Shown one piece after another: positions 4,567 through 35,023 of a stretch of DNA of 54,805 bases (positions within the stretch are counted from its first letter, which is position 1; each line of letters opens with the position of its first letter). The stretch spans positions 1 through 54,805 of the forward strand of contig JAIKZM010000213.1 of assembly GCA_024682215.1 (NCBI GenBank). Direction: 5' to 3'. Source of the stretch: Saccharofermentans sp. Lineage in GTDB: Bacteria; Bacillota; Clostridia; Saccharofermentanales; Saccharofermentanaceae. Made by a program: the position numbers and the translations under genes. The notes under the pieces are model-generated. The model did not search any database and had not been told where the DNA came from. It saw only the letters and a program-made list of their open reading frames with translations.

Positions 4567-5547
4567 TCAATCGTAAAATGCAAGATTTAGCGCGCCCCTT
4601 ACACAAGTAAACTTAACCTTGCGTCCGGAGAAGTCCTCGCCGTCGTAGTTTCCGTTGAGATCACGGTATCCTGTAGCCTCCACGGTAATCTCGGTCGTCC
4701 TGAAACAATCGACATATTTCCTGCCCTCGTGGAGTCCTTTTTTATACTTGGTAATGAGGAATACAGCCCTCGGCAGGCTCACCTGTCCGATGGCGCATAC
4801 ATCCAGCAGACCGTCTTTGACATCCGCTCTCGGAGCAGGACAGAAGCCGCTGCCATAATAAGAACCGTTGCAGATGCTTATGAGAGTAAATCCGGGCTTC
4901 TTGGCAAACTCCGGGACCTCGCTTCCCCTTGTACATTCATATTTGAAATCGAATTTCCTGTTTCCGAAAAGAGCTCCTGCAGCAGAGATCGGATAAGACA
5001 TCTTCCTGATAAAAGCCGATTTCGGATGTCTTAAAACGCGGGATTTCGCTCTGAGCTGCACTTCGGTATCAAGTCCGATTGAAGCGACGTTGTTGCACCA
5101 TGCAGAACTTTCAGGTATCAGATTTCCCTTTGAATCGAACGATTCCACACGGATCAGGTCAATCGGCCTGACAACATAATCGTTCTTGGTAATCTCGCTG
5201 ACGCAGTATTCACAGTCGCCTCTGTGATGTTCATCCATAACTGACCTTGCGAAATCATTGCCGGTACCCAGTGGGATTATCGCCATCGGCAGACTGCTTC
5301 CGGCAAGCACATTGGCAACCTCATGAACCGTTCCGTCACCTCCGCAGGCAATGACAAGAGTATCACCGTCATCCTGTTCAAGGATCTCACGCGCTATTTC
5401 TGAGGCGTGTCCGGCATGCTCTGTATAACGGATCTCACAGCCCTTCATGCTCTCGGTAAAAAGACCGGCCGCGGCTTTGAATCTTTCCATTCCGCGCGAA
5501 TCCGCCCTGCTGTTGACTATGAAAACTTTCCTGCTGTAGCTTTTCAT
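4567..5547 (-). CDS. Diacylglycerol-kinase-family lipid kinase (YegS/BmrU/DgkB-like)
   Basis: 326 residues. The catalytic-fold signatures GGDGTVHEV (69-77) and PLGTGNDFARS (92-102) identify a DAGK_cat-domain lipid kinase that uses ATP to phosphorylate diacylglycerol or a related lipid at the inner membrane face. The C-terminal beta-sandwich (GSYYGSGFCPAPRADVKDGLLDV) is also present. Its ATG (5547) overlaps the acp stop in an ATGA junction, so it is translationally coupled to the acyl carrier protein. Together with the FabT-like regulator this suggests a phospholipid-recycling or precursor step under fatty-acid control. Exact lipid substrate cannot be read from sequence. Confidence 0.88.
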   Translation of the reverse strand: MKSYSRKVFIVNSRADSRGMERFKAAAGLFTESMKGCEIRYTEHAGHASEIAREILEQDDGDTLVIACGGDGTVHEVANVLAGSSLPMAIIPLGTGNDFARSVMDEHHRGDCEYCVSEITKNDYVVRPIDLIRVESFDSKGNLIPESSAWCNNVASIGLDTEVQLRAKSRVLRHPKSAFIRKMSYPISAAGALFGNRKFDFKYECTRGSEVPEFAKKPGFTLISICNGSYYGSGFCPAPRADVKDGLLDVCAIGQVSLPRAVFLITKYKKGLHEGRKYVDCFRTTEITVEATGYRDLNGNYDGEDFSGRKVKFTCVRGALNLAFYD

Positions 5548-5822
5548 TTTCCTTCGGTGAGCCGCATTATGAGGTTAACGATGTCATCAACTGTTTTCAT
5601 CTGATCGAGCATCTCATCCGGAAGCTTGATGTTATAAGCCTCTTCAAGATCGATAACGAACTCGTAAAGCTGAAGCGAATCAAAAGGAAGCTCCGTATTG
5701 AGATCCATGTCCCTCTCTATATCATCTGCGGACACCTCAAGGTCGGAACTCAGGATGCGTATGACTTCGTTATAGATCTGTTCACGTCTGGAATCAGGAT
5801 TCTTGGCATTTCCCATGATCAC
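5544..5822 (-). CDS. acpP: Acyl carrier protein
   Basis: 92 residues; four-helix acidic carrier domain with the phosphopantetheine site Ser49 in PFDSLQLYE, followed by the acidic helix FVIDLEEAYN. It carries acyl chains during fatty-acid and phospholipid synthesis. No fab condensing-enzyme genes are adjacent, so this may be a dedicated or second ACP. Start is GTG (5822), overlapping the MarR stop as GTGA, with AGGAG five bases upstream; an ATG at 5816 is the alternative. Placement directly after a FabT-type regulator is meaningful because FabT of streptococci uses acyl-ACP as corepressor. Confidence 0.9.
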   Translation of the reverse strand: MIMGNAKNPDSRREQIYNEVIRILSSDLEVSADDIERDMDLNTELPFDSLQLYEFVIDLEEAYNIKLPDEMLDQMKTVDDIVNLIMRLTEGK

Positions 5823-6334
5823 TCATTCTCCTTTTTGCTGTCCTTGGCGACCTCCATGGCCGTCTTCCTGACATTATCCGCTCCGTCATATCGTCTGAGC
5901 TGCTGGGCGACATACAAGTCAACCTCGTTTACGAGATCAAGAAGATGTTTTCTGTCCGCTTCGTTGTAACCGCTCAGGATGTGCTTTGCCAGCACTCTGT
6001 GAAACTTGCTGTTCATCCTGCAGGCAAGTTTTCCGTTTCTCGTAAGACTGATCCTTACAACGCGCTTGTCATTGGTATCACGCTGTCTGATGACATAACC
6101 CTTCTTAACAAGCCTGTCGATGGCAACCGTAAGGGTTCCTGTAGTAATTCCCAGGTCCTCGGCGGTCTTCGTCATAGTTCTGGATTCATAGGGACCAATA
6201 GCAGTGAGTGTATGCATTTCTGCTATGGAAAGGTCAGAAAAATAACCGGCCTGAAGGGATTTTTCTTCAGTAAGAACAACGTTTTCAAAGATCCGGACAA
6301 GCGCCTCGGACATTACTTCTTCTTCGATCTTCAA
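5819..6334 (-). CDS. fabT: MarR-family regulator, FabT-like
   Basis: 171 residues with a complete MarR winged helix: recognition-helix region ITTGTLTVAIDRLVKKGYV and wing RDTNDKRVVRISLT. The opening segment (SEALVRIFENVVLTEEKSLQ) resembles FabT of lactic acid bacteria, a repressor of fatty-acid synthesis. Two further facts support that call: the gene is followed by acp, and a near-consensus FabT operator lies at its own promoter. A C-terminal tail of roughly 20 charged residues is extra. Start is TTG (6334) after GGGGGA at seven bases; an ATG at 6313 is possible but lacks a clear ribosome binding site. The orthology call is an inference; MarR function is secure. Confidence 0.72.
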   Translation of the reverse strand: MKIEEEVMSEALVRIFENVVLTEEKSLQAGYFSDLSIAEMHTLTAIGPYESRTMTKTAEDLGITTGTLTVAIDRLVKKGYVIRQRDTNDKRVVRISLTRNGKLACRMNSKFHRVLAKHILSGYNEADRKHLLDLVNEVDLYVAQQLRRYDGADNVRKTAMEVAKDSKKENE

Positions 6335-6365: not shown

Positions 6366-6394
6366 ATTTTACACTAACAGGCCATTTACCACAA
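6366..6394 (-). promoter_or_regulatory. Predicted promoter of the fabT-acp-lipid kinase operon
   Basis: Minus strand TTGTGG (6389-6394), 17 bases, TAAAAT (6366-6371). The FabT-like dyad begins one base upstream of this -35, so a bound regulator would contact or block the polymerase site. Predicted start near 6359. Confidence 0.5.
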
Positions 6395-6395
6395 A

Positions 6396-6408
6396 TTTGA
6401 ATATCAAA
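6396..6408. promoter_or_regulatory. FabT-like operator at the fabT promoter
   Basis: TTTGAATATCAAA is a dyad TTTGA-3-TCAAA. The published FabT site core is TTTGATTATCAAA, so 12 of 13 bases agree, and flanking AA and GT bases also resemble the extended site. It directly abuts the -35 of the fabT operon, as expected for autoregulation. An identical copy occurs at 32447-32459. Confidence 0.65.
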
Positions 6409-6706: not shown

Positions 6707-7072
6707 ATGGAACTAAAAGAATCAGGCGAAATGTATCTTGAGACCATCCTCGTTCTTTCCCAGAATCAGAAGAATGTCCGTTCTCTTGATATAGCAAAAT
6801 ATCTTCATTATTCCAAGCCCAGCATTTCCCGTGCCATGGGAATCCTCCGCAACGCTAAATACATCTCCATAGATGAATCCGGTTACATCACACTTACAAA
6901 CTCAGGCCGTGAGATCGCAGAAAAGATCTATGAGCGCCATGTTGTCATTTCCGGTGTTCTTGAATCCATCGGCGTTGACAAGGAGACGGCAGCCGAGGAT
7001 GCTTGCCGCATCGAGCATGTAATCAGCGATAAGTCTTTTGAGGCTCTTAAGAAAAGCCTCAACATGTCTTAA
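6707..7072 (+). CDS. DtxR/MntR-family metal-dependent transcriptional regulator
   Basis: 121 residues: N-terminal winged helix (about 6-62, recognition helix SKPSISRAMGILRNA) and the iron-dependent-repressor dimerisation domain. Likely metal ligands are His78 (ERHVVISGVL) and the Cys100-x2-Glu103-His104 group (DACRIEHVIS), matching the conserved DtxR/MntR ligands. There is no SH3-like third domain, as in MntR-size members. It is divergent from the Cys-rich Feo-associated peptide, so it probably controls iron or manganese acquisition; which metal it senses cannot be told. Its stop codon overlaps that of the convergent CPBP gene on a shared TTAA. Confidence 0.88.
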   Translation: MELKESGEMYLETILVLSQNQKNVRSLDIAKYLHYSKPSISRAMGILRNAKYISIDESGYITLTNSGREIAEKIYERHVVISGVLESIGVDKETAAEDACRIEHVISDKSFEALKKSLNMS

Positions 7073-29222: not shown

Positions 29223-31084
<1,862 letters not shown>

Positions 31085-31201
31085 GAATACCTCTCATGTA
31101 TAGTTTTAGATATCAAAATTCAAATCGTGGAAATTGGGATCAGTTACAAAAGATCAATCGAATTACCAAAGGAAATATCTATTGTCAGGATCAACCCGAC
31201 T
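31085..31201 (-). promoter_or_regulatory. Long rho 5' leader
   Basis: About 115 nt between the predicted start and the rho ATG, without an evident ORF or strong hairpin. Rho commonly terminates its own leader, so this is a plausible autoregulation region. GAGAGG precedes the ATG. Confidence 0.35.
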
Positions 31202-31207
31202 GCGTGA

Positions 31208-31236
31208 ATTTTAACATTACGTTTTTTACTCGTCAA
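31208..31236 (-). promoter_or_regulatory. Predicted rho promoter
   Basis: Minus strand TTGACG (31231-31236), exactly 17 bases, TAAAAT (31208-31213). Five of six and five of six matches to consensus; placed after the mreB terminator. Confidence 0.7.
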
Positions 31237-31275
31237 CACTTATTTTGTGCATATTTCGGTCTCTGTAAACCGCGA

Positions 31276-31315
31276 ATAAAAATAGACGCCCATCAATAGA
31301 TAGATGAGCGTCTAT
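31276..31315 (-). terminator. Terminator after mreB
   Basis: Minus strand stem ATAGACGCTCATC / GATGGGCGTCTAT (31303-31315 with 31282-31294), one G-U pair, eight-base loop, then TTTTTATT. Separates mreB from the rho promoter. Confidence 0.88.
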
Positions 31316-31335
31316 AAAGTTAAAAACCGGTAAGA

Positions 31336-32349
31336 TCAAACGTCGCTTGAAAGTGCGGCAAACTTGTCCATCATGTCGAGCGCCTTACCTGTTCCGATAA
31401 CAACGCACGATACAGGATCCTGAGCGAGATAGACATCGATGCCGATCCTGTTGGAGAGCATGTGATCAAGACCGTAAAGCATTGCACCGCCTCCTGTCAT
31501 AACAATACCTCTCTGCGAGATATCAGCCATGAGTTCCGGTGGTGTTCTCTCGAGAACGTTATGCACTGCTTCAAAGATCTGTGTGATAGGTTCCTCAAGA
31601 GCTTCGAGCATCTCTGTTGAAGAAACGGTAACTGTTGAAGGAAGACCCGTGATGATGTTTCTTCCCTGGACATCCAATGTAAGCTCCTCGTCTCTCGGAT
31701 AAGCGCATCCGATCTCGATCTTAAGCTTCTCGGCGGTCTTCTCACCAATGAGGATGTTATGTCTCTTTCTGACGTGCTTGATGATGGCTTCATCGAACTT
31801 ATCGCCTGCCACCTTAAGTGATGCGTCAACAACAGGCTCGCAAAGCGAGATAACGGAAATATCCGTCGTACCGCCGCCGATATCAACTACCATTGAACCG
31901 CATGCCTTTGTAATGTCGATACCTGCACCGATCGCTGCGGCGATAGGCTCCCTGATAAGGAAAACGTCCTTTGCACCGGCATGACGGCAAGCATTCTCAA
32001 CTGCCTGTTGCTCTACAGGTGTGATAACAGAAGGAACGCAAACTACGATAGTAGGCTTAAAATATGTTGCACGAAGTCCTGTGCAGACACGGCCGATAAA
32101 TGCCTTAAGCATAACTTCGGTCGCACGGAAGTCTGAGATAACGCCTTCACGGAGCGGCCTGATGGCTTCTACGATTCCCGGAGTCCTTCCGAGCATGAGG
32201 CTTGCGGATTCACCGACTGCCAAAACTTTACCTGTTCTGCTGTTTACTGCGACTACAGAGGGTTCTTTAAGGACTATTCCTTTGCCCCTGATATATATCA
32301 ACACGCTGCTGGTGCCGAGATCGACACCAATCTCCATGCCTAATGCCAT
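31336..32349 (-). CDS. mreB: MreB/Mbl-family rod-shape actin homologue
   Basis: 337 residues. Actin-fold phosphate-1 GVDLGTSSVLIYIRGKGIV, phosphate-2 VVDIGGGTTDISVISL and adenosine motif GIVMTGGGAMLYGL are all present. Forms membrane-bound filaments that guide lateral wall synthesis. It is monocistronic, with no mreC or mreD, which often marks an Mbl/MreBH-type paralogue. The MALGMEIGVDLG start lacks a strong amphipathic helix. GAGGTG lies seven bases before the ATG. The promoter carries a FabT-like dyad next to its -35. Confidence 0.93.
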   Translation of the reverse strand: MALGMEIGVDLGTSSVLIYIRGKGIVLKEPSVVAVNSRTGKVLAVGESASLMLGRTPGIVEAIRPLREGVISDFRATEVMLKAFIGRVCTGLRATYFKPTIVVCVPSVITPVEQQAVENACRHAGAKDVFLIREPIAAAIGAGIDITKACGSMVVDIGGGTTDISVISLCEPVVDASLKVAGDKFDEAIIKHVRKRHNILIGEKTAEKLKIEIGCAYPRDEELTLDVQGRNIITGLPSTVTVSSTEMLEALEEPITQIFEAVHNVLERTPPELMADISQRGIVMTGGGAMLYGLDHMLSNRIGIDVYLAQDPVSCVVIGTGKALDMMDKFAALSSDV

Positions 32350-32414
32350 AAATTATCACCTCAAAATATATAGAAACGCCGATTTTTAGCGTATTATTAC
32401 AAAATCAACGCCCT

Positions 32415-32443
32415 ATTATTACATCACATTACCCAAAAATCAA
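32415..32443 (-). promoter_or_regulatory. Predicted mreB promoter
   Basis: Minus strand TTGATT (32438-32443), 17 bases, AATAAT (32415-32420). A FabT-like dyad starts three bases upstream of the -35. Confidence 0.5.
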
Positions 32444-32446
32444 TTA

Positions 32447-32459
32447 TTTGAATATCAAA
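32447..32459. promoter_or_regulatory. FabT-like operator between mreB and leuS
   Basis: TTTGAATATCAAA, identical in sequence and orientation to the dyad at 6396-6408; the shared block extends to 15 bases (ATTTGAATATCAAAG). It abuts the mreB -35 and lies 16 bases upstream of the leuS -35, so it could act on either gene, more likely on mreB. Confidence 0.5.
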
Positions 32460-32475
32460 GCTAATTACAACTGTG

Positions 32476-32504
32476 TTTCATTTTTATTCCTCTGGTGCTA
32501 AAAT
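32476..32504 (+). promoter_or_regulatory. Predicted leuS promoter
   Basis: TTTCAT (32476-32481), 17 bases, TAAAAT (32499-32504); start near 32511 and a short leader with AAGGAG before the ATG. The leader is too short for a T-box. Confidence 0.5.
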
Positions 32505-32539
32505 TAGTTGTTATTTTTTAAGTATTAAGGAGCAGTGTC

Positions 32540-35023
32540 ATGAGTTATTCAATCGAGACCGACAAAAAATGGCAGGCAAAATGGGCGGAGACCGGACTTT
32601 ATAAGTTCAATCCGGATGCAGAAGGCAAAAAGCTTTATTGCCTTGAGATGTTCTCTTATCCTTCCGGCGCCAACCTACACCTTGGTCACTGGTATAACTA
32701 TTCCCTTACTGACTCCTGGGCAAGGTTCAAGCACATGCAGGGCTTCAACCTCTTCCACCCCATGGGATTCGACTCATTCGGACTCCCCGCTGAGAACTAT
32801 GCGATCAAGACAGGTATCCATCCCCAGGACTCAACTCTCAAGAACATCGCTACGATGGAAGGCCAGCTCAAGGCCATGGGCACTACAGTAGATTGGGATT
32901 ATGAGATCAAGACATGCATGCCTGACTACTACAGATGGAACCAGTGGTTCTTCATTGAACTCTACAAGAGAGGTCTTGCTTACCGTAAGAACGCACCCGT
33001 AAACTGGTGCCCTTCATGCAAGACCGTTCTTGCCAACGAGCAGGTCGTTGACGGCGCTTGCGAGAGATGCCATACGGAAGTTGTCAGAAAGAACATGACT
33101 CAGTGGTTCTTCAAGATCACAGAGTATGCTCAGGAACTCTTAGATGATCTTCCGAAGCTCGACTGGCCTGAAAAGACCAAGAAGCTCCAGAAAAACTGGA
33201 TCGGCAGATCCGAAGGTGCTCAGGTAGCCCTCTACGTCGAAAAGGACGGAAAGAGACTTACGAACGAGGACGGTTCTCCCATGAAGCTCGAAGTGTTCAC
33301 CACGAGAGTCGATACTTTCATGGGTATCACATATGTCGTTATCGCTCCTGAGTCAGAGCTTTGCGCTAAGCTTACCACCGATGAGTGCCGCGAAGCCGTT
33401 GAAGCATACCGCCAGGCTACTGCAAAGGTCAACGAGATCGACCGTATGTCCACGACACGTGAGAAGACAGGCGTCTTCACTGGTGCTTATGCAATCCATC
33501 CTCTGAACGGCAGAAAGGTTCCTATCTGGGCAGCAGATTATGTTGTCGCAGGCTATGGTACCGGCGTTGTCATGGCTGTTCCTTCACACGATGAGAGAGA
33601 CTACGATTTCGCTCACAAGTACGGTCTTGACATCATCCGTGTAATCCAGCCCGAAAAGGGTGTTGATTCCGAACTTCCCTACTGCGAGAAGAAGGGTTAT
33701 CTCACTAACTCCGATGAGTTTGACGGCATGGAAATGCACGATGCCCAGAAGGCCATCGTCGCAAAACTCGCCGAGATAGGCATGGGTGAATGGAAAGTCA
33801 ACTTCAGGCTCCGTGACTGGCTCATCTCCCGTCAGAGATATTGGGGAACTCCGATCCCCATGATCCACTGCCCTTCATGCGGCGTTGTACCCGTACCCGA
33901 AGAAGAGCTCCCCGTTCTTCTCCCATACGACGTGGAATTCACACCTGACGGTGAAAGCCCGCTCGCCAAGTGCGAATCATTCATGAACTGCAAGTGCCCC
34001 AAGTGCGGCGGTGATGCAAGACGTGATCCCGATACGATGGACACCTTCGTTGACTCTTCCTGGTATCAGTTCAGATATCCTGATAACAAAAACGACAAAG
34101 CGATGTTCTCAAAGGAAAAGATCGACAAGTTCTGCCCTGTCGACAAGTACGTCGGCGGCGCCGAGCACGCATGCATGCATCTGCTCTATGCAAGGTTCTT
34201 CACAAAGGCCATGCGTGACATGGGCCTTCTCGATTTCGACGAGCCTTTCACAAGCCTCGTTCACCAGGGAACCATCTTGGGACCTGACGGACAGAAGATG
34301 AGTAAATCCAGAGGCAACACTGTTGCACCTGACGATTACATCAGCAAGTACGGTTCAGACGTATTCAGAACATATCTGGGATTCGGATTTGCTTACATCG
34401 AAGGCGGTCCGTGGGCAGATTCCGGGCTCCAGGCGATCGTCAAGTTCTTCAGAAGGATCGAGACATGTGTATCCGAATGCGCAGGCACGGATGCTTCCGC
34501 GGTTCCCGCTAAGGCAGACATGACATCTGCCGACAAGGAACTCAACTATGCTGTCAACTACGCTATCAAGAGTTCAACGGCAGACATCGAGAAGTTCCAG
34601 TTCAACACTCCTATCGCAAGAATGATGGAACTCTTGAATGCTATCACCAAGTACAGCCAGGATAGTTCCTGCAAGGCTGAGTTCAAGAGATATGCAACAG
34701 AGAAGCTCGTTCTTCTCCTCGCACCTTTCGCTCCCCACTTCACTGAAGAACTCTGGTGTGAAGTACTCGGCAACGGCTATTCCGTTTACAACCAGAAGTG
34801 GCCTAAAGTCGATGAGAGCGCACTCGTAAAGGACGAGATCGAGATTGCAGTCCAGATCAACGGTAAGGTCCAGTTCAAGGTCAACATCCCTGCAGAAGCT
34901 GATCAGGATGCAGTCGAAGCCATCGTAAAGGCTGACGACAGACTTGAAGGCGCTCTCGCCGGCAGATCTGTCATGAAGTTCATCTACGTTAAGGGCAGGA
35001 TCGCAAACATCGTAGCTAAGTAA
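32540..35023 (+). CDS. leuS: Leucyl-tRNA synthetase
   Basis: 827 residues, class Ia. HIGH-type motif HLGH (47-50) and KMSKS (about 586-590). Zinc-ribbon cysteines occur in CPSCKTVL...CERC and CPSCGVV...CPKC, and the CP1 editing domain includes the conserved [11 protein letters not shown] threonine-rich region and [15 protein letters not shown]. The C-terminal NGKVQFKV domain is typical. Charges tRNA-Leu and edits norvaline or isoleucine. Monocistronic, own promoter and terminator. Codon use is strongly biased to preferred codons, as expected for high expression. Confidence 0.98.

Follow-up and report, generated by a model that had tools for sequence, protein, structure and literature searches.

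A FabT-type palindrome between mreB and leuS in one lineage of Saccharofermentans, and the possible capture of mreB into an acyl-ACP-sensing regulon

Background

How cells match membrane synthesis to the elongation of the cell wall is an open question. It is raised at the locus considered here by a short palindrome, TTTGAATATCAAA, which lies between mreB and leuS on a contig of Saccharofermentans sp. and recurs upstream of a gene for a FabT-like regulator. The initial annotation of this DNA had suggested a shared regulator linking fatty-acid supply to rod-shape synthesis, or to leuS. The window, by which we mean the whole stretch of DNA analysed, is contig C73 of 54,805 bp; the genome to which it belongs measures 2.63 Mb in 228 contigs and is 85% complete, and many of its nearest relatives are from rumen and gut. 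The genes and boxes under discussion are the following.

4567..5547, minus strand: YegS/DAGK-type lipid kinase (DAGK_cat, YegS_C)
5544..5822, minus strand: acyl carrier protein, acp (Pfam PP-binding)
5819..6334, minus strand: FabT-like MarR regulator with a TTG start (best NCBIfam model FabT, 129 bits; structure 6jbx, 90.7 bits)
6396..6408, no strand: FabT-type box TTTGAATATCAAA preceding the fabT-like gene, with perfect arms in five of the nine clade genomes
31336..32349, minus strand: mreB (457 bits, cut-off 293)
32447..32459, no strand: FabT-type box TTTGAATATCAAA between mreB and leuS, its arms invariant and its centre variable across all eight clade genomes that could be read
32540..35023, plus strand: leuS (980.6 bits, cut-off 548.4)

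Results and discussion

Two copies of one palindrome in the window

The identical 13-mer has been confirmed at 6396-6408 and 32447-32459, in one orientation and within a shared block of 15 bases, ATTTGAATATCAAAG. The first copy precedes the minus-strand MarR gene by 61 nt; the second precedes mreB by 97 nt and leuS, on its other side, by 80 nt. The initial annotation expected such a 13-mer 0.002 times by chance; a first-order Markov model corrects this figure to 0.0045 for the window. By itself the shared 13-mer is weak evidence, because as many as 141 different 13-mers are repeated within the window. Nor is the relaxed motif TTTGANNNTCAAA, when at most one mismatch is allowed, enriched there (2 found, 3.33 expected from shuffles). 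Significance from the window alone was rejected on these two counts, and that of the motif is drawn instead from comparison across the genome and the genus. TTTGAATATCAAA is one of only three repeated stretches in the window of which the 13-mer copies are all intergenic.

The regulator and its gene neighbourhood

The regulator has a MarR winged-helix domain (Pfam MarR, 47.7 bits against a cut-off of 24.6). Among the NCBIfam models FabT is the best at 129.3 bits, the next reaching 46.3; this score is below the cut-off of 200, which is passed by none of the 118 genomes of the order, and Lactococcus lactis, the only control genome with a FabT match, also remains below it. The best solved structure is 6jbx, a fatty acid biosynthesis transcriptional regulator (90.7 bits, the next at 39.5). 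Matches to FabT at an E-value of 1e-30 or better are encoded in 82 of the 85 genomes of the genus.

The order fabT, acp, lipid kinase, as recognised by short motifs and not by a family search, has been found at four of six loci inspected in two other genera of the family and at four of five inspected loci of family f3. By the same short motifs, two loci of the family have fabT and the lipid kinase with no flagged acp; fabT and acp alone are seen at a short locus of f3 and at one of f4. The grouping of the three genes recurs across the order, in two families and several genera (loci L040-L044, L309 and L313-L337). Divergent to the fabT-like gene, the window also encodes a DtxR-type metal-dependent repressor at 6707-7072.

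Distribution of the motif

In the genome of the source bacterium 14 sites match TTTGANNNTCAAA, whereas the reversed pattern has 4. Six of the 14 have the form TTTGANTATCAAA, and all six are intergenic; the other eight comprise five within genes and three outside. One of the three is upstream of an alpha/beta hydrolase gene, and relatives of that gene elsewhere carry the motif in full. The six TTTGANTATCAAA sites are upstream of fabT, of mreB/leuS, of fabH (followed by a fabK-like gene), of a carboxyltransferase gene of the mmdA type that is cut by the end of its locus, of a gene for a CarS-like protein and of the gene for L-lactate dehydrogenase (ldh).

The initial annotation had proposed that the genome and its relatives be scanned for intergenic copies and the genes downstream listed; random placement, or placement in coding DNA, would have spoken against its reading. 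Across 24 genomes of the genus TTTGANTATCAAA has 94 sites, compared with 10 for the reversed pattern, and 92 of the 94 are intergenic when genes are called by codon usage, with the window as the training set. Non-coding DNA makes up 21% of the fetched stretches and 6% of the window. Even at 25% non-coding DNA the probability of at least 92 intergenic sites is 1e-52, a value which overstates the case because sites in related genomes are not independent. The recurrent targets, each family being checked on one or two of its members, are fabH (14), ldh (10), alpha/beta hydrolase (5) and acyl-CoA carboxyltransferase (4), and further boxes are found at fabT, acyltransferase and AMP-binding genes. 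Outside the genus a FabT-like box is present at the fabT promoter of G031 and G028. Palindromic sites at the promoters of fabH, of the carboxyltransferase and of fabT itself are, at the level of sequence, what a FabT regulon would be expected to show.

A cruder rule, by which a site is counted when it falls within an open reading frame of at least 150 aa, was applied to all genomes alike. It places 14 of 94 sites of the genus in such frames, compared with 15 of 18 in f2, a family of the order with no FabT match at E 1e-20 (Fisher p 2.6e-8). Since f2 has 18 sites against 4 of the reversed pattern, the reversed-pattern control is imperfect. For f3 and f4, where 11 of 17 sites were looked at, 4 of the 11 are in such frames. 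The length of the covering frame was used for f2 to f4 because the window-trained gene caller failed on those families.

Three genomes of the genus without a FabT match (G050, G055 and G089) bear on the identity of the binding protein. They contain 11 boxes, all intergenic and some at fabH and the carboxyltransferase, as would be expected if the palindrome were the operator of another regulator with a similar site and the FabT-like protein a bystander; the loss or degradation of fabT's own box in some members of the clade that keep the mreB box (described below) points the same way. Yet a full-length ortholog of the neighbouring lipid kinase was not found in these three genomes either, and an assembly gap or joint loss is therefore possible. 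Moreover, fabH has a box in 14 genomes, as does fabT in G000, G002, G006, G031 and G028, and the intergenic bias is missing in f2, which has no FabT. We regard a different regulator as quite unlikely.

Two other targets are recorded here. The FabT-type box about 128 nt upstream of the L-lactate dehydrogenase gene (L001:1501-1513 and relatives) is found in 10 of the 24 genomes and often takes the longer form TTTGATTATCAAATTATCAAA; no clear promoter lies beside it. A protein of about 500 aa (L141:2-1489, minus strand), which matched no Pfam or NCBIfam model at the chosen thresholds, has a box just before its promoter in several genomes of the genus.

Position of the box relative to promoters

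The candidate promoter elements around the two boxes are as follows.

6366..6394, minus strand: candidate fabT promoter TTGTGG-17-TAAAAT, 1 nt after the box
32415..32443, minus strand: candidate mreB promoter P1, TTGATT-17-AATAAT, TG-extended, 3 nt after the box
32443..32470, minus strand: second candidate mreB promoter TTGTAA-16-AATAAT, a consensus match only, its spacer containing most of the box
32499..32504, plus strand: candidate leuS -10 TAAAAT, TG-extended, read from the sequence and conserved in the clade

A stricter consensus scan recovers P1 of mreB and finds no promoter at fabT. Both hexamers of P1 are invariant in the eight genomes that have the mreB box, and the -10 of the second candidate is altered in G078. 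The box had been described as ending one to three bases upstream of the -35, and this holds for the candidate -35 elements of fabT (1 nt) and mreB (3 nt); at the CarS-like gene of the same genome the distance is 4 nt.

In each of the 14 genomes that have the motif at fabH, a box directly follows the -10, a place suited to blocking the promoter. The fabT box precedes the -35 in G000 and G002 and follows the -10 in G006, and at fabH of G004, G005 and G007 boxes flank one promoter on both sides. These placements at fabT and on both sides of the fabH promoter are the ground on which repression of mreB is favoured. Characterised MarR proteins are mostly repressors, although activators exist (PMC5487221); with the box upstream of the -35, an activator could also be conceived.

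On the other side of the same intergenic region is leuS, and the operator might act on that gene, with or without an action on mreB, at a distance of about 58 nt from the inferred leuS start site. The box is 80 nt from the leuS start codon, and the clade conserves the -10 of leuS. The box nevertheless lies about 17 nt upstream of the best -35-like hexamer of leuS, away from the position of a repressor, and it adjoins the -35 of mreB. No other annotated site of the genus has a tRNA-ligase gene as its target; the ldh site follows thrS but faces ldh. Regulation of leuS, with or without mreB, is a rather unlikely explanation of the box, although some effect on leuS may occur as well.

Other kinds of element were considered and rejected for this region. 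The only terminator-like call in 32340-32545 is in the mreB leader and not at the box, and a terminator role for the box was dismissed. An RNA element such as a T-box or riboswitch at leuS was set aside: 31000-33000 has no Rfam match, the inferred leader measures only about 30 nt, and the palindrome folded as RNA scores no better than shuffles. An FNR/CRP-type site was rejected on the consensus spacing of such sites.

The mreB leader itself (32376-32392, minus strand) contains a hairpin of 4-8 pairs, 10-16 nt before a ribosome-binding GAGG, in 36 of 38 genomes of the genus. Its stems covary (for example GCGCC/GGCGT, GCGTC/GACGT and GCGC/GCGC), and the mean best stem score, with stems scored one by one, is 9.0 compared with 6.4 in shuffles.

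Conservation of the mreB site

The region upstream of leuS was read in 43 of the 85 genomes of the genus, and mreB is within 600 nt in 38 of the 43. The box with perfect arms is present in eight of these 38 (G000, G002, G009, G018, G049, G078, G093 and G100) and absent from the other 30, G005 and G020 among them. Those eight together with G061 are the nine genomes whose FabT is at least 96% identical to that of the window, the next being 86% identical; the site of G061 could not be read because its leuS match begins at residue 52. The box is thereby kept in all eight readable genomes of the clade, namely the source bacterium and seven sister species. In a wider collection of contigs it was found at 6 of 74 loci with enough upstream DNA, apparently in genomes already counted. 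AB4001, YAD3003 and KHP2, whose records do not carry MAG in their titles, have no box at this position.

Its absence from most of the examined genus, like the recurrence of 13-mers and the lack of enrichment within the window, would suit a non-functional match that arose by chance or survives as a relic. The pattern of substitution argues against this: among the eight genomes all ten arm columns are invariant and all three centre columns vary (ATA, CTG, CCA, CTA), in an alignment of the mreB/leuS region of which 129 of 206 columns are invariant overall. Within the clade the box at mreB (8 of 8) is also better preserved than that of fabT itself. The latter has perfect arms in five of nine genomes; in G100 it has a single mismatch and a different location, and in G018, G009 and G093 it has decayed or disappeared. 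A chance or relic origin is accordingly highly doubtful.

Loss of the mreB copy in close relatives had been named as evidence that would tell against the proposal, and the outcome is divided: the copy is absent from 30 of 38 examined genomes of the genus and retained throughout the readable clade. Because those 30 have mreB beside leuS without the box, it appears that a single lineage of the genus gained it. In a leuS DNA tree of 42 rows seven of the box genomes group together and G093 groups with G023, so that two changes are needed on that tree; recombination at leuS or two gains could explain them.

A probable FabT operator at mreB

We consider it reasonably probable that the FabT-like regulator encoded at 5819-6334 has the palindrome at 32447-32459 as an operator and, with acyl-ACP, would likely repress mreB from there. 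Most likely the site is a FabT operator that was recruited by mreB in one lineage. The kind of operator is ordinary, and the target is unusual. FabT is likely to be the protein which binds the box, and repression is likely from the position of the box. The earlier idea of one regulator for fatty-acid supply and rod shape is thus supported in so far as a FabT-type operator is placed both at the fabT-acp-lipid kinase row and at mreB; in the choice left between mreB and leuS, position favours mreB without being decisive.

Known FabT is a repressor helped by acyl-ACP (PMC13046290, PMC9083066), and in Enterococcus faecalis AcpB is the carrier of FabT's ligand (PMC9083066). By analogy with AcpB, the ACP neighbouring fabT may carry the ligand here. 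The co-repressor would be a long-chain acyl-ACP, possibly formed on that ACP, and FabT bound to it would sit against the predicted -35 of mreB and cause repression. A surplus of acyl-ACP would then lower both fatty-acid synthesis and the supply of MreB, and a shortage would relieve both. The fuller proposition, that mreB has been captured into an acyl-ACP-sensing FabT regulon in one Saccharofermentans lineage and that the supply of MreB, the actin of rod elongation, depends directly on the lipid pool, is plausible and falls a little short of being probable.

If true, such a link would show a simple way in which one lineage matches membrane and wall at the level of transcription, a single step wiring membrane synthesis to cell-wall elongation. 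It would represent a recent gain of an operator for which box-free sister species are natural controls. The range of FabT-type regulons, for which Lactobacillales are the best-studied case, would also widen to include uncultured Clostridia of the rumen and targets such as ldh. PMC full text, which does not cover subscription papers, yielded no report of FabT control of mreB, nothing that combined the mreB promoter and transcription with fatty acid, and nothing on a FabT box.

Comparison with known systems

Control of lipid synthesis at the level of transcription by an intermediate of the pathway would be a trait shared with the FapR regulon of Bacilli. FapR belongs to a protein family other than that of FabT and senses malonyl-CoA. 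The closer likeness is to the FabT regulon of Lactobacillales (Streptococcus, Lactococcus, Enterococcus), in which a FabT-related MarR regulator is likewise associated with palindromes at the fabH and fabT promoters. The operator letters of the Lactobacillales FabT are close to TTTGATTATCAAA. Unlike the fabT-fabH operon of that order, fabT is here followed by acp and a lipid kinase gene and not directly by fabH, which is found with the fabK-like gene on another contig (C130). The sites described in the current analysis also differ from the Lactobacillales regulon in extending to ldh, the CarS-like gene, acyltransferases and, in one clade, mreB.
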